From Streptomyces sp. NBC_01216 (lineage in GTDB: Bacteria > Actinomycetota > Actinomycetes > Streptomycetales > Streptomycetaceae): 64,000 nt of DNA. Both the position numbers and the translations under genes were made by a program. Shown here in pieces: positions 19,561 through 30,701 of the stretch (the first letter of the stretch is position 1; the number at the start of each line of letters is the position of its first letter). The notes beneath the pieces are model-generated. The model was not told the origin of the DNA, made no database searches, and saw only the letters and a list, made by a program, of their open reading frames with translations. The DNA lies in assembly GCF_035994945.1 (NCBI RefSeq), contig NZ_CP108677.1:6510001-6574000 (forward strand), read 5' to 3'.

Positions 19561-22676
<3,116 letters not shown>

Positions 22677-22766: not shown

Positions 22767-23456
22767 TCAGCCCGCGTCGTCGTGCTCGTGCGCCTGGGCG
22801 GCGATGACCGCCGCCTGTACCCGTCGTTCGACCCCGAGTTTGGCGAGCAGCCGCGAGATGTGGTTCTTGACCGTCTTCTCCGACAGGTAGAGGCGGTGGG
22901 CGATCTGGCGGTTGGTCATGCCCTCTCCGATGAGGTCCAGCACGTCGTGTTCCCGCTGCGTGAGGGCTGCGAGGAGTGCGTCCTCCGGCGGACTCGCGGG
23001 CTCCGGCTCCCGCAGGGAGCTCATCAGCCGGGCCGTGGTGGCGGGGTCGAGCATCGACTGTCCGGTCGCCACCGTACGGACCGCCGCCACCAGGTCCGAC
23101 CCCTTGATCTGCTTGAGCACGTAACCCGCCGCCCCGGCCATGATCGCGTCGAGAAGGGCCTCCTCGTCGTCGAAGGAGGTGAGCATCAGGCAGGCCAGCC
23201 CCGGCATCCGTGACCGCAGTTCCCGGCACACCGAGATGCCGTCGCCATCGGGGAGCCGCACGTCGAGGATCGCCACGTCCGGCTCCAGGGCGGGCCCCCG
23301 GGCGAGCGCCTGCTCGGCCGTGGCCGCCTCGCCGACCACCGTCAGGTCCTCCTCGGCGTCGAGAAGGTCGCACAGGCCCCGGCGGACGACCTCGTGATCG
23401 TCCAGGAGGAAGACCCGCACGTGTGCGGCGGCGGAGAAGCCCGGTTCGTCGGACAT
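22767..23456 (-). CDS. DevR/DosR-like (OsdR-like) LuxR-family response regulator
   Basis: A 229-residue response regulator. The receiver domain has D19/D20, phospho-acceptor D65 ([12 protein letters not shown]) and switch lysine K115 (YVLKQIKG). The linker [18 protein letters not shown] is characteristic of DosR, and the NarL/LuxR DNA-binding domain reads [20 protein letters not shown] followed by RVQAAV, nearly the DosR recognition helix. ATG 23456 gives the usual length. It lies convergent to, and 90 bp from, the DevS-like kinase. It should bind GGGNC-N4-GNCCC boxes such as those at 14129 and 20683. Close similarity to DosR/OsdR is seen; the regulon here is inferred. Confidence 0.9.
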
Positions 23457-23672
23457 GGAGGCCCCTGTGGTCGCGTTCCGGAGATGACCGGTATCCCCGA
23501 CCAGTGTCTCAGGACCCGCGCGAACGCACCGTCGGACGGCTTCCTTCGGGGGGTGTGTCCCGCACGCCGCCACTCGGGGCGACGCACGGTGTTCCTTCGC
23601 GGCACCGGGTCATCCGCTGGTGACCCAGGGCATCGGCCCACGACGTCCGGTGACGGACGCGCGGACCGTGCT

Positions 23673-24627: not shown

Positions 24628-25116
24628 CTGCGTCCCTGCTGTGTGCCCGCGGCGAGGTGGGCTCCGCATCGACGGGTGCGCGCACGGGGAGCGGCGCACC
24701 CCACGTGGCGCCCGGGAAGCCTCATGATCTCCCGCGCCGTCGGTCAGGCGGGCGGGGAACCGGCCCGCCTCGCCCCGGGCCCGCCTCCCGTGTACCCGCA
24801 GCGGGGAAGGGACCGCGTCGGCGGGGCGGACGGTGTATCCGCACGGAGGATGAGTCAAACACGGGTGGTTCGCGGTGTTTCATGCGCTTCTCGAATGACG
24901 CGGATCGCCCCGAAGTCCCGATAACGGACTAACCCGGACCGTTTGCCTGTGGCATAGGCTCCGTGGCTTCGGGCGGGTATCGTCTCGGCCGCTCGGTCGG
25001 GATCCTTCGAGCCCGCGCCGGAGAAGTGCCGCGGAATCTTCGGCGTTTCCTGTTATCCGGGAGACGCCCTGCGGTCTCCCAGATGCCGGGCATCGACAAC
25101 AGGCGGGACAGGCAGA
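24628..25116. other. Intergenic region upstream of the sigma-CAP fusion gene
   Basis: About 490 bases between divergent genes. It is less GC-rich near 24885-25080 and probably holds the promoter of the downstream gene. An ECF-type autoregulatory promoter might be expected, but I cannot assign -35/-10 boxes with confidence. No small gene or hairpin stands out. Confidence 0.45.
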
Positions 25117-27231
25117 GTGAATCAGGGCATGGGAACACAGCACGGGACGGATCTCGTAAGGGCGGCACAGAGCGGCGACCCGTGGGCTCAGGACCAGCTC
25201 ATCGCCGCCTATCTGCCCCTCGTCTACAACATCGTCGGACGAGCCCTCAACGGTCACCAGGACGTCGACGACGTCGTGCAGGAGACGATGTTGCGGGCGC
25301 TCGACGGCCTGGGGGGCCTGCGCGCACCGGACAGTTTCCGGTCCTGGCTCGTCGCCATCACCATGAACGGGATACGCGGTCACTGGCACAAGCGGCGCAC
25401 CGGCCTTCCCGCCGGCGCCCTCGACGACGCCCGTGACGTCCCTCACCCCGGGGCCGACTTCGTGGAACTCGCCGTCGTCCGGCTGCACCTGTCCGGGCAG
25501 CGGCGGGAGACCGCCGAGGCGACCCGCTGGCTGGAGCCGGACGACAGCGCCCTGCTGTCGCTGTGGTGGCTGGAGTGCGCGGGCGAGCTGACCCGCTACG
25601 AGCTGGCGGCAGCCCTCGAACTCTCCACGCAGCACACCGCGGTCCGTGTGCAGCGGATGAAGACACAGCTCGACACCGCCCGGGTCGTCGTGCGGGCCCT
25701 CGCGGAGAACCCGCTGTGCCCCGCCCTGGGGTCCGAGCTCGGCACCTGGGACGGCCGGCCCTCGGCCCTCTGGCGCAAGCGAATAGCCCGCCACGCCCGC
25801 GGCTGCGCGCACTGCCGGGGCCTGTGGAGCAACCTCGTCCCCGCCGAGGGGCTGCTGGCCGGACTGCTCCTCGTCCCCCCGGCGGCGCTGTTGCTCGCCA
25901 CCGTCCGGGACGCCGCGGGCTCCGGACTCGCAGCGGCGTCCGCCGCGACCACCGCGTTCCCGGCACAGCACCACGGCACCGGATACGGGACGCCCGGTCC
26001 CTACGGGGCCACCGAGCCCTACGGTGCGCCGTACGAGGCATCCGGTACCTACGAGGCATCCGGCTCCTACGGGACGCCGGGCGGGTACGACACCTCCGGC
26101 GGGTACGACACCTCCGGCGGGTACGGGACGCCGAGCCCGTACGAGACGAACGGCGCCTACGGGACCACGCTGTCGCACGAGTCCGACCCCCTCCACGGAG
26201 CTCCCGCGCAGACGCCGTACGAGGCCGCGCCGTACCAGAGCGGCCCGGCCCACGCGGCGACCGCCCCCTACGACGTGAGCGCGCTCCGCGCCCCGTACGA
26301 GACGGCGGAGCCCTACGAGGCCGCGGGCCCCTCCGAGCCGACCGAGCCGTGGACCACGGGCGAGGAGAGCGTCGCCCAGGAGCCCGGAGCGTCGTACGGG
26401 CACCGGAGTGCCCCGGCGGGAGCGGGCGGTCGTGGCTCCCGAGGTGCCCGCCGGCGTCGGGAACAGGAGCGGCGACGCGGCCGGCGCAGGGCCGTCGTCG
26501 CCGCCGGCATGGCGGTCGTGGCCGTCACCGGCGGGTCGTTCTACCTGAGCGGGGGACCCGACGGGGACGGCGACACGCTGGACGCGAACCGCGCCGCCGC
26601 GCCCGGCCCCGACCTGCCCCTCGCACAGCAACCCACCACCATGCTGGAGACTCCTTCCGCCTCGGCGTCCGCGTCCGCGTCCGCGTCCGCGTCGGCGAGC
26701 GCCACCGCGAGCCCGTCCGCCACCCCCAGCCGCACGGCGAAAGCCACGCCGAAGAAGACCGCCGCGCCCCGCACCTCGTCGCCCGCGCCGAAGCCGAAGG
26801 CGACCACCACGGGGACCGGCACGGGCACCGGAACGAAGCCCGGGTCCGGCTCGGACTCGACCGCCGACCAGGTCATCAGCCTGGTCAACGCCGAGCGAGC
26901 CAAGGCCGGCTGCGCTCCCCTGACGGCGAACTCGCAGCTGACCAGGGCGGCTCAGGGGCACTCCGACGACATGGCCGCGCGTGGCTTCTTCGATCACACC
27001 AATCCCGACGGCAAGAGTCCGGGCGACCGGGTCACGGCCGCCGGCTATCCCTGGTCGACGTACGGCGAGAACATCGCCAAGGGCCAGCGGACCCCGGAGC
27101 AGGTGATGGAGGCGTGGATGAACAGCCCGGGCCACCGCGCCAACATCCTCAACTGCGCCTTCAAGGAGATCGGGGTCGGCATCCACGACGAGGGCGGCCC
27201 CTACTGGACGCAGGTCTTCGGCGCTCGCTGA
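25117..27231 (+). CDS. ECF sigma factor fused to zinc anti-sigma-like motif, transmembrane helix and extracellular CAP/SCP domain
   Basis: A 704-residue chimera. Residues ~10-195 are an ECF sigma factor: region 2 (AQDQLIAAYLPLVYNIVGRA, then DVDDVVQETMLRALDGLGGL) and region 4 (ELTRYELAAALELSTQHTAV). Residues 226-233 are HARGCAHC, the H-x3-C-x2-C pattern of zinc anti-sigma domains, then a hydrophobic stretch (~243-265). A Tyr/Gly/Thr repeat region (~285-420) and an Arg-rich segment precede a transmembrane helix (~460-480, AVVAAGMAVVAVTGGSFYL). An Ala-Ser/Pro-Thr linker leads to a CAP/SCP domain (~582-704; VISLVNAERAKAGC, GENIAKGQ, NSPGHRANIL). Positive-inside topology puts sigma in the cytoplasm and CAP outside. 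It may be a one-protein signalling receptor. GTG 25117 is chosen; ATG 25129 is possible. Confidence 0.85.
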   Translation: MNQGMGTQHGTDLVRAAQSGDPWAQDQLIAAYLPLVYNIVGRALNGHQDVDDVVQETMLRALDGLGGLRAPDSFRSWLVAITMNGIRGHWHKRRTGLPAGALDDARDVPHPGADFVELAVVRLHLSGQRRETAEATRWLEPDDSALLSLWWLECAGELTRYELAAALELSTQHTAVRVQRMKTQLDTARVVVRALAENPLCPALGSELGTWDGRPSALWRKRIARHARGCAHCRGLWSNLVPAEGLLAGLLLVPPAALLLATVRDAAGSGLAAASAATTAFPAQHHGTGYGTPGPYGATEPYGAPYEASGTYEASGSYGTPGGYDTSGGYDTSGGYGTPSPYETNGAYGTTLSHESDPLHGAPAQTPYEAAPYQSGPAHAATAPYDVSALRAPYETAEPYEAAGPSEPTEPWTTGEESVAQEPGASYGHRSAPAGAGGRGSRGARRRREQERRRGRRRAVVAAGMAVVAVTGGSFYLSGGPDGDGDTLDANRAAAPGPDLPLAQQPTTMLETPSASASASASASASASATASPSATPSRTAKATPKKTAAPRTSSPAPKPKATTTGTGTGTGTKPGSGSDSTADQVISLVNAERAKAGCAPLTANSQLTRAAQGHSDDMAARGFFDHTNPDGKSPGDRVTAAGYPWSTYGENIAKGQRTPEQVMEAWMNSPGHRANILNCAFKEIGVGIHDEGGPYWTQVFGAR
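26083..26118 (+). repeat. In-frame 18-base direct repeat in the sigma-CAP gene
   Basis: Two perfect copies of GGGTACGACACCTCCGGC followed by a partial third, encoding GYDTSG units within the Tyr/Gly-rich linker. In-frame, so copy changes only alter linker length. Confidence 0.85.
26663..26694 (+). repeat. In-frame hexanucleotide repeat (GCGTCC)n in the sigma-CAP gene
   Basis: Four tandem GCGTCC units plus degenerate flanks, encoding an Ala-Ser repeat just after the transmembrane helix. Expansion or loss would change the extracellular spacer length without shifting the frame. Confidence 0.85.
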
Positions 27232-29594: not shown

Positions 29595-30377
29595 TCAGGG
29601 TCTGAACACCATCAGGCCGGATACCGTGCAGGACATCTCCGACACGTTCCGGTCCGGCGCCGGGTGGTACCGCCCCGCGCAGACCGAGAGGTTGACGATG
29701 AGGTGGGCGCGCCAGTCGCGGCCCACTCCGCGCCGGTCGGCGTGGGCGCGGACGCCGTTGACGCTCCACACCACCGACCGGGCGCCGAACTCGGTGCGCA
29801 GGTCCACCCATTCCCCCGGCCGGATCGAGGGGTGGCGGTAGTAGCGGTGTCCTCCCCGTACATGGTTGGACAGCTCCAGGAGGTCGGGGTTGTCCGGGTG
29901 GTACTCGAAGACGTCGATCTCCTGGCCGCCGTCCAGCCAGGTCCAGATCGCCGGCCAGGCTCCCATCTCCCTGGGGAGTCTCACCCGCGCCTCCAGCACG
30001 TCGCCCGCGCGGACCTGGAAGCCCTCGGCGCTGCCCTCCGTCGTCAGGAGGCCCGCGTCCCACTTCCCGTCGGGCCGCCGGGTCGCCCGGAAGACCCCCG
30101 AGCGGCTGTACGCCGGGTCCTCCACCAGGTAGTCCAGCTTGTTGTCGCCGGGGTTGGTGGGCCCGCCGCCGGGATAGGCCCAGGAGCGGCCCGCGACCCA
30201 CTGGGTGGCGGAGCCGAAGTCCGCGACGAACACCGGCGTCGCGGAGGACGGAGCCGAGGGCGCGCGGGGCGGCGGCGGGGACGGCGACGGGTCCGGTGCC
30301 CGCGGCGGGGCGGGAACGGTGTCGCGCCCCTGCCCGCGGTGCCGTCGCCGCAGCCGGTCGATCAGATCCGAGAACAT
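29595..30377 (-). CDS. Family 16-like glycoside hydrolase without a signal peptide
   Basis: A 260-residue protein. Residues ~1-50 are basic then Pro-rich (PSPSPPPPRAPSAP). The rest is a jelly-roll domain with a GH16-type active-site strand, EIDVFEYH (the E-x-D-x-x-E triad), preceded by WPAIWTWLDGG and followed by LIVNLSVCAG. GH16 enzymes cleave beta-1,3 or mixed glucans and related polysaccharides and are normally secreted. Here no hydrophobic leader is found from ATG 30377 (good GGAGGAG site), nor in the upstream in-frame extension. It may be non-classically exported, or the start of the gene may have been lost. Confidence 0.72.
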   Translation of the reverse strand: MFSDLIDRLRRRHRGQGRDTVPAPPRAPDPSPSPPPPRAPSAPSSATPVFVADFGSATQWVAGRSWAYPGGGPTNPGDNKLDYLVEDPAYSRSGVFRATRRPDGKWDAGLLTTEGSAEGFQVRAGDVLEARVRLPREMGAWPAIWTWLDGGQEIDVFEYHPDNPDLLELSNHVRGGHRYYRHPSIRPGEWVDLRTEFGARSVVWSVNGVRAHADRRGVGRDWRAHLIVNLSVCAGRYHPAPDRNVSEMSCTVSGLMVFRP

Positions 30378-30701
30378 GGGCGAACTCCTCCGTGGGGGGT
30401 ATGGGTCATCCGGAGGCGTTCTGCCCAGGGACGCGCCACTCATGCTGAATCGTTCACCATGTGTCGAGTTGTCGTCACACAGGAGTAGTCGTCGTACGAG
30501 AGGAGCGGCCGTGCGGACCGCGTTCCGTCGCCGCGGGGGTGGTCCGGACGCGGGCGCCGGGCCCGGTCGCCGCAGACGGCCCGAGGGGGGTGGGCCCTGC
30601 TCGCGAGGGGAGTCACCCACTCGTGTGGATACCCCCCAAGGGTATTGCTGTCACGGTGGAGTCAGGTGCCCCAAGGGGTCATCCTTTCGAAGGAGAGTGA
30701 C
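30378..30701. other. Intergenic region between the GH16-like gene and the persulfide-module pseudogene
   Basis: About 320 bases holding two divergent promoter regions. The only recognisable element is the CsoR/CstR-type palindrome at 30629-30645. Short frames in between show no family resemblance. Confidence 0.5.
30629..30645. promoter_or_regulatory. CsoR/CstR-type operator upstream of the metallo-hydrolase/rhodanese pseudogene
   Basis: ATACCCCCCAAGGGTAT, an inverted repeat ATACCC-N5-GGGTAT, 57 bases before the start of the degraded gene at 30702. A sister site ATACCC-N4-GGGTAT lies at 31871 in front of the CstR-like repressor and rhodanese genes. Such sequences are typical CsoR-family operators. 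Confidence 0.7.

Follow-up and report, generated by a model that had tools for sequence, protein, structure and literature searches.

A CAP-ended extracytoplasmic function sigma factor in Streptomyces, its fused zinc module and the promoter motif that it may read

What might a single bacterial polypeptide do that begins as a sigma factor and ends as a CAP domain? In a stretch of 64,000 nucleotides from Streptomyces sp. NBC_01216 (NZ_CP108677.1, positions 6,510,001 to 6,574,000; hereafter the window), one gene (25117..27231) encodes such a protein of 704 amino acids, which we call sigma-CAP. The gene has a GTG start, with an in-frame ATG at 25129 as a possible alternative, and all of its features described here lie on the plus strand. 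A sequence-only reading of this DNA had seen sigma regions, an Hx3Cx2C module, an Arg-rich stretch, a membrane helix, a spacer and a CAP domain in one frame, and we found all of them in this open reading frame (ORF). The search for proteins with both sigma and CAP domains that it had proposed recovered the two together in 118 of the best 120 listed homologues and in 69 of 70 named loci (a set of 80 from which ten without a complete ORF were dropped), ruling out a chance fusion or a frame artefact. We consider it probable that sigma-CAP is a self-inhibited, membrane-tethered and autoregulated extracytoplasmic function (ECF) sigma factor controlling CAP surface proteins.

Sequence comparison establishes this architecture as conserved, with an outer end that is swapped among family members. 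Of 101 sampled Streptomyces genomes, 81 hold a relative (E ≤ 1e-40). Across the order, relatives occur in 144 of 197 genomes (E ≤ 1e-30), and across the class in 19 of 246, of which 16 belong to the genus and three lie outside the order. The NBC_01216 genome holds three sigma-CAP genes. A first set of loci, chosen down the list of relatives, comprised 97 loci with 92 matching ORFs, 78 of them distinct. The outer ends of other members are AbfB (L064, L073), GH99 (L078), Glyco_hydro_cc (L330, L331) or a beta-rich domain without a Pfam assignment (L053, L087 and others). In a tree built from 77 N-terminal modules, with 23 of 74 inner branches open and L059 dropped, the five end labels require at least 6 changes, the minimum possible being 4; this is consistent with few exchanges of the outer end and retention of the sigma module. 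Members with the beta-rich domain (L053, L055, L069, L074, L083-L087, L095-L097 and others) share a slightly variable signature, LFHVASGG...MWQNEY...APVPQYLTR, and a model of this domain from L087 (predicted local distance difference test 71.6, predicted template modelling score 0.75) had no PDB match at E ≤ 0.001. In genome G034 (C77:319319-320102) the family match is split between two frames, the two pieces overlapping, and this copy may be broken or mis-assembled.

An alignment of the regions upstream of sigma-CAP genes contains two blocks at near-constant spacing, GTTATC-N15-GRTCTCCC (25052-25080 in the window). This footprint yields a putative -35 element, TGTTATC (25051..25057), and a putative -10 element, GGTCTCCC (25073..25080), which begins 15 nucleotides 3' of GTTATC; the pattern TGTTATC-N15-17-GTCTCC falls at 25051-25079. 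A conserved putative promoter, of the ECF kind that the sequence-only reading had suggested looking for, is present upstream of the gene itself and of some CAP genes. An inverted repeat, GGGAGAC...GTCTCCC (25058-25080), overlaps the spacer and the -10 element in the window; it is present also in G229 and absent from the other orthologues in the alignment. Within the NBC_01216 genome, GTTATC-N15-GRTCTC has two perfect matches, 5' of the window gene and of paralogue 3. The looser pattern GTTRTC-N14-16-GGTCTCC has five matches, four of them at the three sigma-CAP loci, where they precede all three sigma-CAP genes and a stand-alone CAP gene oriented divergently to paralogue 2. The fifth (3044806) is antisense within a predicted ORF and was set aside as a target.

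The motif recurs across the genus and the family. GTTATC-N15-GGTCTCCC has 26 matches in the 101 genus genomes (control 1), preceding 24 family sigma genes, one stand-alone CAP gene and one gene for a papain-like protein, while TGTTATC-N15-17-GTCTCC has 92 (reversed-pattern control 0). Among the named loci, GTTAT-N16-19-RTCTCC lies within 150 bases upstream in 60 of 70, whereas 20 rounds of dinucleotide shuffling gave no match; the remaining ten carry related variants by eye. An earlier pattern had left 17 named loci unmatched; all 16 that were viewed (L318 was left out) have GTTAT and TCTCC at similar spacing by eye. GTTATC-N17-GTCTCC also precedes L330, a relative from another order of the class, and by eye the motif was not seen upstream of L331 or L332.

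All 92 genus sites were examined for the gene behind them: 54 precede sigma genes, 4 stand-alone CAP genes, 16 alginate-lyase-like genes, 15 beta-helix-like genes and 3 others. By sequence, 38 of the 54 sigma genes are nearest the CAP branch, with a CAP domain within the available DNA in 30, and 16 are of the beta type. The alginate-lyase-like proteins have a twin-arginine translocation (Tat)-like start (L163, L167, L205, L226 and others), and the beta-helix-like proteins have about 700 residues (L159, L196 and others). Both families are probably secreted, judging from signal-like starts seen by eye and, for two proteins, sub-cut-off TAT matches. Whole-protein Pfam scans cover three of the 16 alginate-lyase-like proteins (L167, L205, L226) and one of the 15 beta-helix-like proteins (L196), the other sites being assigned by shared sequence words. 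Motif-bearing CAP genes in G174, G212 and G247 lie on contigs separate from the listed sigma genes.

Sigma region 2 (residues 28-94, 25198..25398) matches Pfam Sigma70_r2 (E 2.6e-13) and, by fold, ECF region 2. A diverged region 4 (about residues 123-196, 25483..25704) is indicated by the span of TIGR02937, by predicted helices and by a fold match to SigW. The TIGR02937 sigma70-ECF model scores 55.2 bits over residues 24-185, above its cut-off of 42.9, which places the protein among ECF factors. Its AlphaFold model resembles SigW as far as residue 192, with sigma regions 2 and 4 predicted in a closed arrangement like that of RsiW-bound SigW. The fused zinc anti-sigma-like module (about residues 201-262, 25717..25902) includes C201, H226, C230, C233 and E244, all invariant in 47 members, over which the N-terminal module has 34 invariant columns. 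The Hx3Cx2C motif is kept in 78 of 78 members and spans helices 2 and 3 of the predicted short helices (202-210, 217-229, 231-237 and 243-247), the definition of a zinc-type class I anti-sigma domain in the sections available of PMC7406223, where RsiW is also said to carry a zinc-binding motif. The fused module may bind and inhibit the sigma part. Loss of key sigma residues, which the sequence-only reading had named as speaking against it, was not apparent when judged by overall conservation and fold, not contact by contact.

Between the zinc module and the membrane lies a low-complexity linker that is probably cytoplasmic (residues 263-438, 25903..26430) and differs in length between members. 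From H226 to the helix there are 233 residues in the window protein and a median of 95 in 55 members, the helix search having begun 70 residues past the zinc motif. An Arg-rich juxtamembrane stretch (residues 439-458, 26431..26490) leads into the membrane helix (residues 459-477, 26491..26547), whose hydropathy is 1.82 over 19 residues. The N-terminal flank of the helix has a more positive net charge than the far flank in 53 of 55 CAP members, so that the sigma part is predicted inside and the CAP domain outside. Beyond it come a stalk rich in Ser, Ala, Pro and Thr (residues 478-580, 26548..26856) and the CAP domain (residues 581-704, 26857..27228), both predicted outside. The domain belongs to the CAP superfamily by its Pfam score (89.9 bits against a cut-off of 21.1, E 2.8e-25) and falls outside the YkwD family TIGR02909 (127 bits, under the cut-off of 171). 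Among the 55 members, H627 and E651 are each kept in 53 and H673 in 51; these are residues of the type of the cavity His and Glu of the CAP superfamily. C599 and C680, each kept in 52, would suit an extracellular disulphide.

The sequence-only reading had proposed a self-contained transmembrane transcription system, and this idea draws support from the conserved architecture, the zinc-type ligands, the closed predicted fold and, chiefly, the conserved promoter. In the resting state, the fused zinc module would hold sigma regions 2 and 4 closed at the membrane. An outside cue, for which the sequence-only reading had suggested a wall or lipid ligand, may act on the CAP domain or the stalk, and proteolysis would then free the cytoplasmic part and remove the brake. 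The release step follows the precedents of IutY, where proteolysis has been demonstrated, and of SCO4117, where it is a proposal, as far as the available sections describe (PMC8999054, PMC5826349). The free sigma factor would read TGTTATC-N16-GTCTCC promoters at its own gene, giving positive feedback, and at genes for stand-alone membrane-anchored CAP proteins.

Would sigma-CAP itself read these promoters? It is unlikely that a different sigma factor does so, with sigma-CAP merely a target of that regulator, although the promoter was assigned by comparison and further sigma-like genes, L249 and some that match more weakly, exist in the genome. The pattern TGTTATC-N15-17-GTCTCC occurs in 57 of the 81 genus genomes with the family and in none of the 20 without (Fisher p = 2.6e-9), and sites before non-sigma genes alone give 26 of 81 against 0 of 20 (Fisher p = 0.0012); both p-values are optimistic, related genomes not being independent, and the counts come from a hand-made locus-to-genome table. 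The motif also precedes members of both the CAP and the beta branch, mostly with branch-typical spacing, as well as L330, as expected if each sigma factor reads its own promoter. The branches are partly distinguished by spacer length and -10 flank: the 38 CAP-branch sigma sites include 37 with a 16-base spacer, 26 with GGTCTCC and 11 with CGTCTCC, whereas beta-type sites have a 17-base spacer in 15 of 16 and CGTCTCC in all. Among the 31 enzyme-type targets CGTCTCC is universal, and the spacer is 16 bases long in 13 and 17 bases long in 18. A beta-type sigma gene at a site accompanies 13 of the 16 genomes with alginate-lyase-like sites (one short ORF, L222, being classed from its start only) and 12 of the 15 with beta-helix-like sites.

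The mode of activation and the activity of the sigma part allow two further alternatives. Sigma-CAP might work in one-component fashion, staying tethered while a conformational change or oligomerisation triggered by the CAP domain relieves the hold of the module and RNA polymerase is recruited at the membrane. The long linker after H226 would give the tethered sigma part reach, and ECF groups activated through a conformational change of their extension are known (PMC8999054, in the part available). However, the signal would have to traverse that long low-complexity linker, and the membrane-bound fused cases in the sections at hand are released by proteolysis, shown or proposed (IutY; the SCO4117 model; PMC8999054, PMC5826349); we regard this mode as improbable, if slightly less so than a different reader of the promoter. 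Very improbable is a protein that is mainly a membrane-anchored CAP surface protein whose sigma part no longer transcribes. The missing Pfam match for region 4 would fit such a remnant, as would the existence, by eye, of stand-alone CAP proteins with a like Arg-rich, helix, stalk and CAP plan. The invariant columns of the N-terminal module, the conserved upstream promoter and the retention of the sigma module with quite different outer domains disfavour it.

Several observations weigh against an autoregulated, self-inhibited sigma-CAP. Allowing one mismatch, GTTATC-N15-GRTCTC has 46 matches in the NBC_01216 genome (control 2), most beyond those examined, and these may be further targets or chance matches. 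In the first set, 19 of 56 CAP members lack a match to the CAP-type pattern. No motif could be recognised at two of the three stand-alone CAP genes of the genome (1907530 and 6692986), which argues against a single simple CAP regulon. The five families that Pfam gives for the protein at E up to 10 include neither Sigma70_r4, region 4 being too diverged, nor zf-HC2. The structures of sigmaE-RseA and AlgU-MucA align with the model over region 2 only; the fold comparison barely extends past residue 190, leaving the zinc module itself unmatched, and AlphaFold may echo anti-sigma-bound ECF structures that it already knew. Of the two hydrophobic stretches in the protein, 245-263 and 459-477, the former lies directly after the zinc module and is read here as part of it; it could instead be a second membrane helix, which would alter the topology.

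Three of the six CAP domains in the NBC_01216 genome are in the sigma-CAP proteins, two are stand-alone beside sigma-CAP genes and one is elsewhere. A stand-alone CAP gene adjoins 8 of 38 sigma-CAP genes (four divergent, four convergent) and lies within the fetched flanks of 6 of the 70 named loci; for members lacking a CAP match, 22 loci of 16 kb each showed no CAP gene next to the sigma gene. A comparison of the seven window neighbours against 140 loci gave no match at E ≤ 1e-20 for five of them; of the others, an ORF without a Pfam match (29595-30620, minus strand) has relatives in two loci, and the LuxR-type regulator has matches in three. Gene context, being poorly conserved, says nothing about what the window copy does. 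The former ORF looks secreted and is GH16-like by eye only; its relative directly adjoins a sigma-CAP gene in L040 and is near one in L281. A GAF histidine kinase (20622-22676, plus strand) is convergent with a LuxR-type response regulator (22767-23573, minus strand).

The view of sigma-CAP as a new kind of protein was not borne out. In the sections available, ECF factors fused to a zinc anti-sigma domain, a membrane helix and an outside domain are already described (PMC8999054, PMC5826349), and the extension of ECF48, ECF52 and ECF53, up to 400 residues long, contains a zinc finger plus one or two membrane helices (PMC8999054). A zinc motif is present in sigma-CAP, as are one or two hydrophobic stretches, but its part after residue 196 is longer, at about 508 residues. 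SCO4117 (ECF52, Streptomyces coelicolor) similarly joins sigma, zinc finger, membrane region, low-complexity stalk and outside domain in one polypeptide, and autoregulation and proteolytic release have been proposed for it; its outside domain is a carbohydrate-binding module instead of CAP, and the promoter motif reported there is CSGYN-17bp-SRHA instead of TGTTATC-N-GTCTCC (PMC5826349, in part). We rejected ECF52 membership, given the CAP outer domain and a separate NPCBM-ended ECF-like protein, L249, in the same genome. L249 (3251132), unlike sigma-CAP by eye, is likely the SCO4117/ECF52 counterpart. ECF53 is named as an actinobacterial group with a fused zinc and membrane extension (PMC8999054, PMC10766802), and glycosyl hydrolase and carbohydrate-binding domains are reported as predicted in some ECF52 and ECF53 proteins (PMC10766802). 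By description, the relatives ending in AbfB, GH99 or Glyco_hydro_cc may resemble ECF53, for which the sections at hand do not mention a CAP ending. IutY (ECF243, Pseudomonas putida) is also an ECF sigma fused to a membrane anti-sigma and activated by proteolysis, but it serves iron-starvation cell-surface signalling to aerobactin, and no CAP is mentioned in the part available (PMC8999054). The predicted sigma 2-4 arrangement of sigma-CAP resembles that of SigW bound by RsiW in Bacillus subtilis. SigW and RsiW are two separate proteins and are not known to have a CAP sensor. The SigI/RsgI systems of cellulolytic clostridia, as far as described, likewise have several paralogous sensors for different substrates that control extracellular proteins; there too sigma and anti-sigma are separate, the sigma class is another one and no CAP domain is known.

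The plan of sigma-CAP fits the known ECF48/52/53 kind; what is added is CAP at the outer end, a putative promoter and a set of predicted regulons. A CAP- or AbfB-linked ECF factor, the TGTTATC/GTCTCC promoter and its predicted regulons were not found in the literature searched, ECF classification papers lying outside that search. More tentatively, with the balance slightly against it, sigma-CAP may represent a single branch of a family of plug-and-play receptors found in Streptomyces and its relatives, in which a constant chassis of sigma factor, brake and anchor would carry swappable outer sensors and read near-identical promoters of narrow regulons. CAP sensors would then control CAP surface proteins, and beta-domain sensors the predicted alginate-lyase-like and beta-helix secreted proteins. 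If so, sigma-CAP would be the first transcription receptor with a CAP sensor within the literature searched. Among fused ECF factors in Streptomyces, only SCO4117 is described as studied in the sections available (PMC8999054, PMC5826349). For the fused-ECF class, predicted regulons are now available. CAP-domain proteins occur widely in bacteria, and for most of them no function is known; a paper on DalA (PMC10470522), as far as it was searched, gave nothing on what CAP domains do. With its CAP domain coupled to a sigma factor in one chain, sigma-CAP would offer a transcriptional read-out for finding what CAP senses: a reporter carrying TGTTATC-N15-GGTCTCCC is expected to follow the activity of sigma-CAP, and the motif can be used to predict targets in further Streptomyces whose genomes are sequenced.
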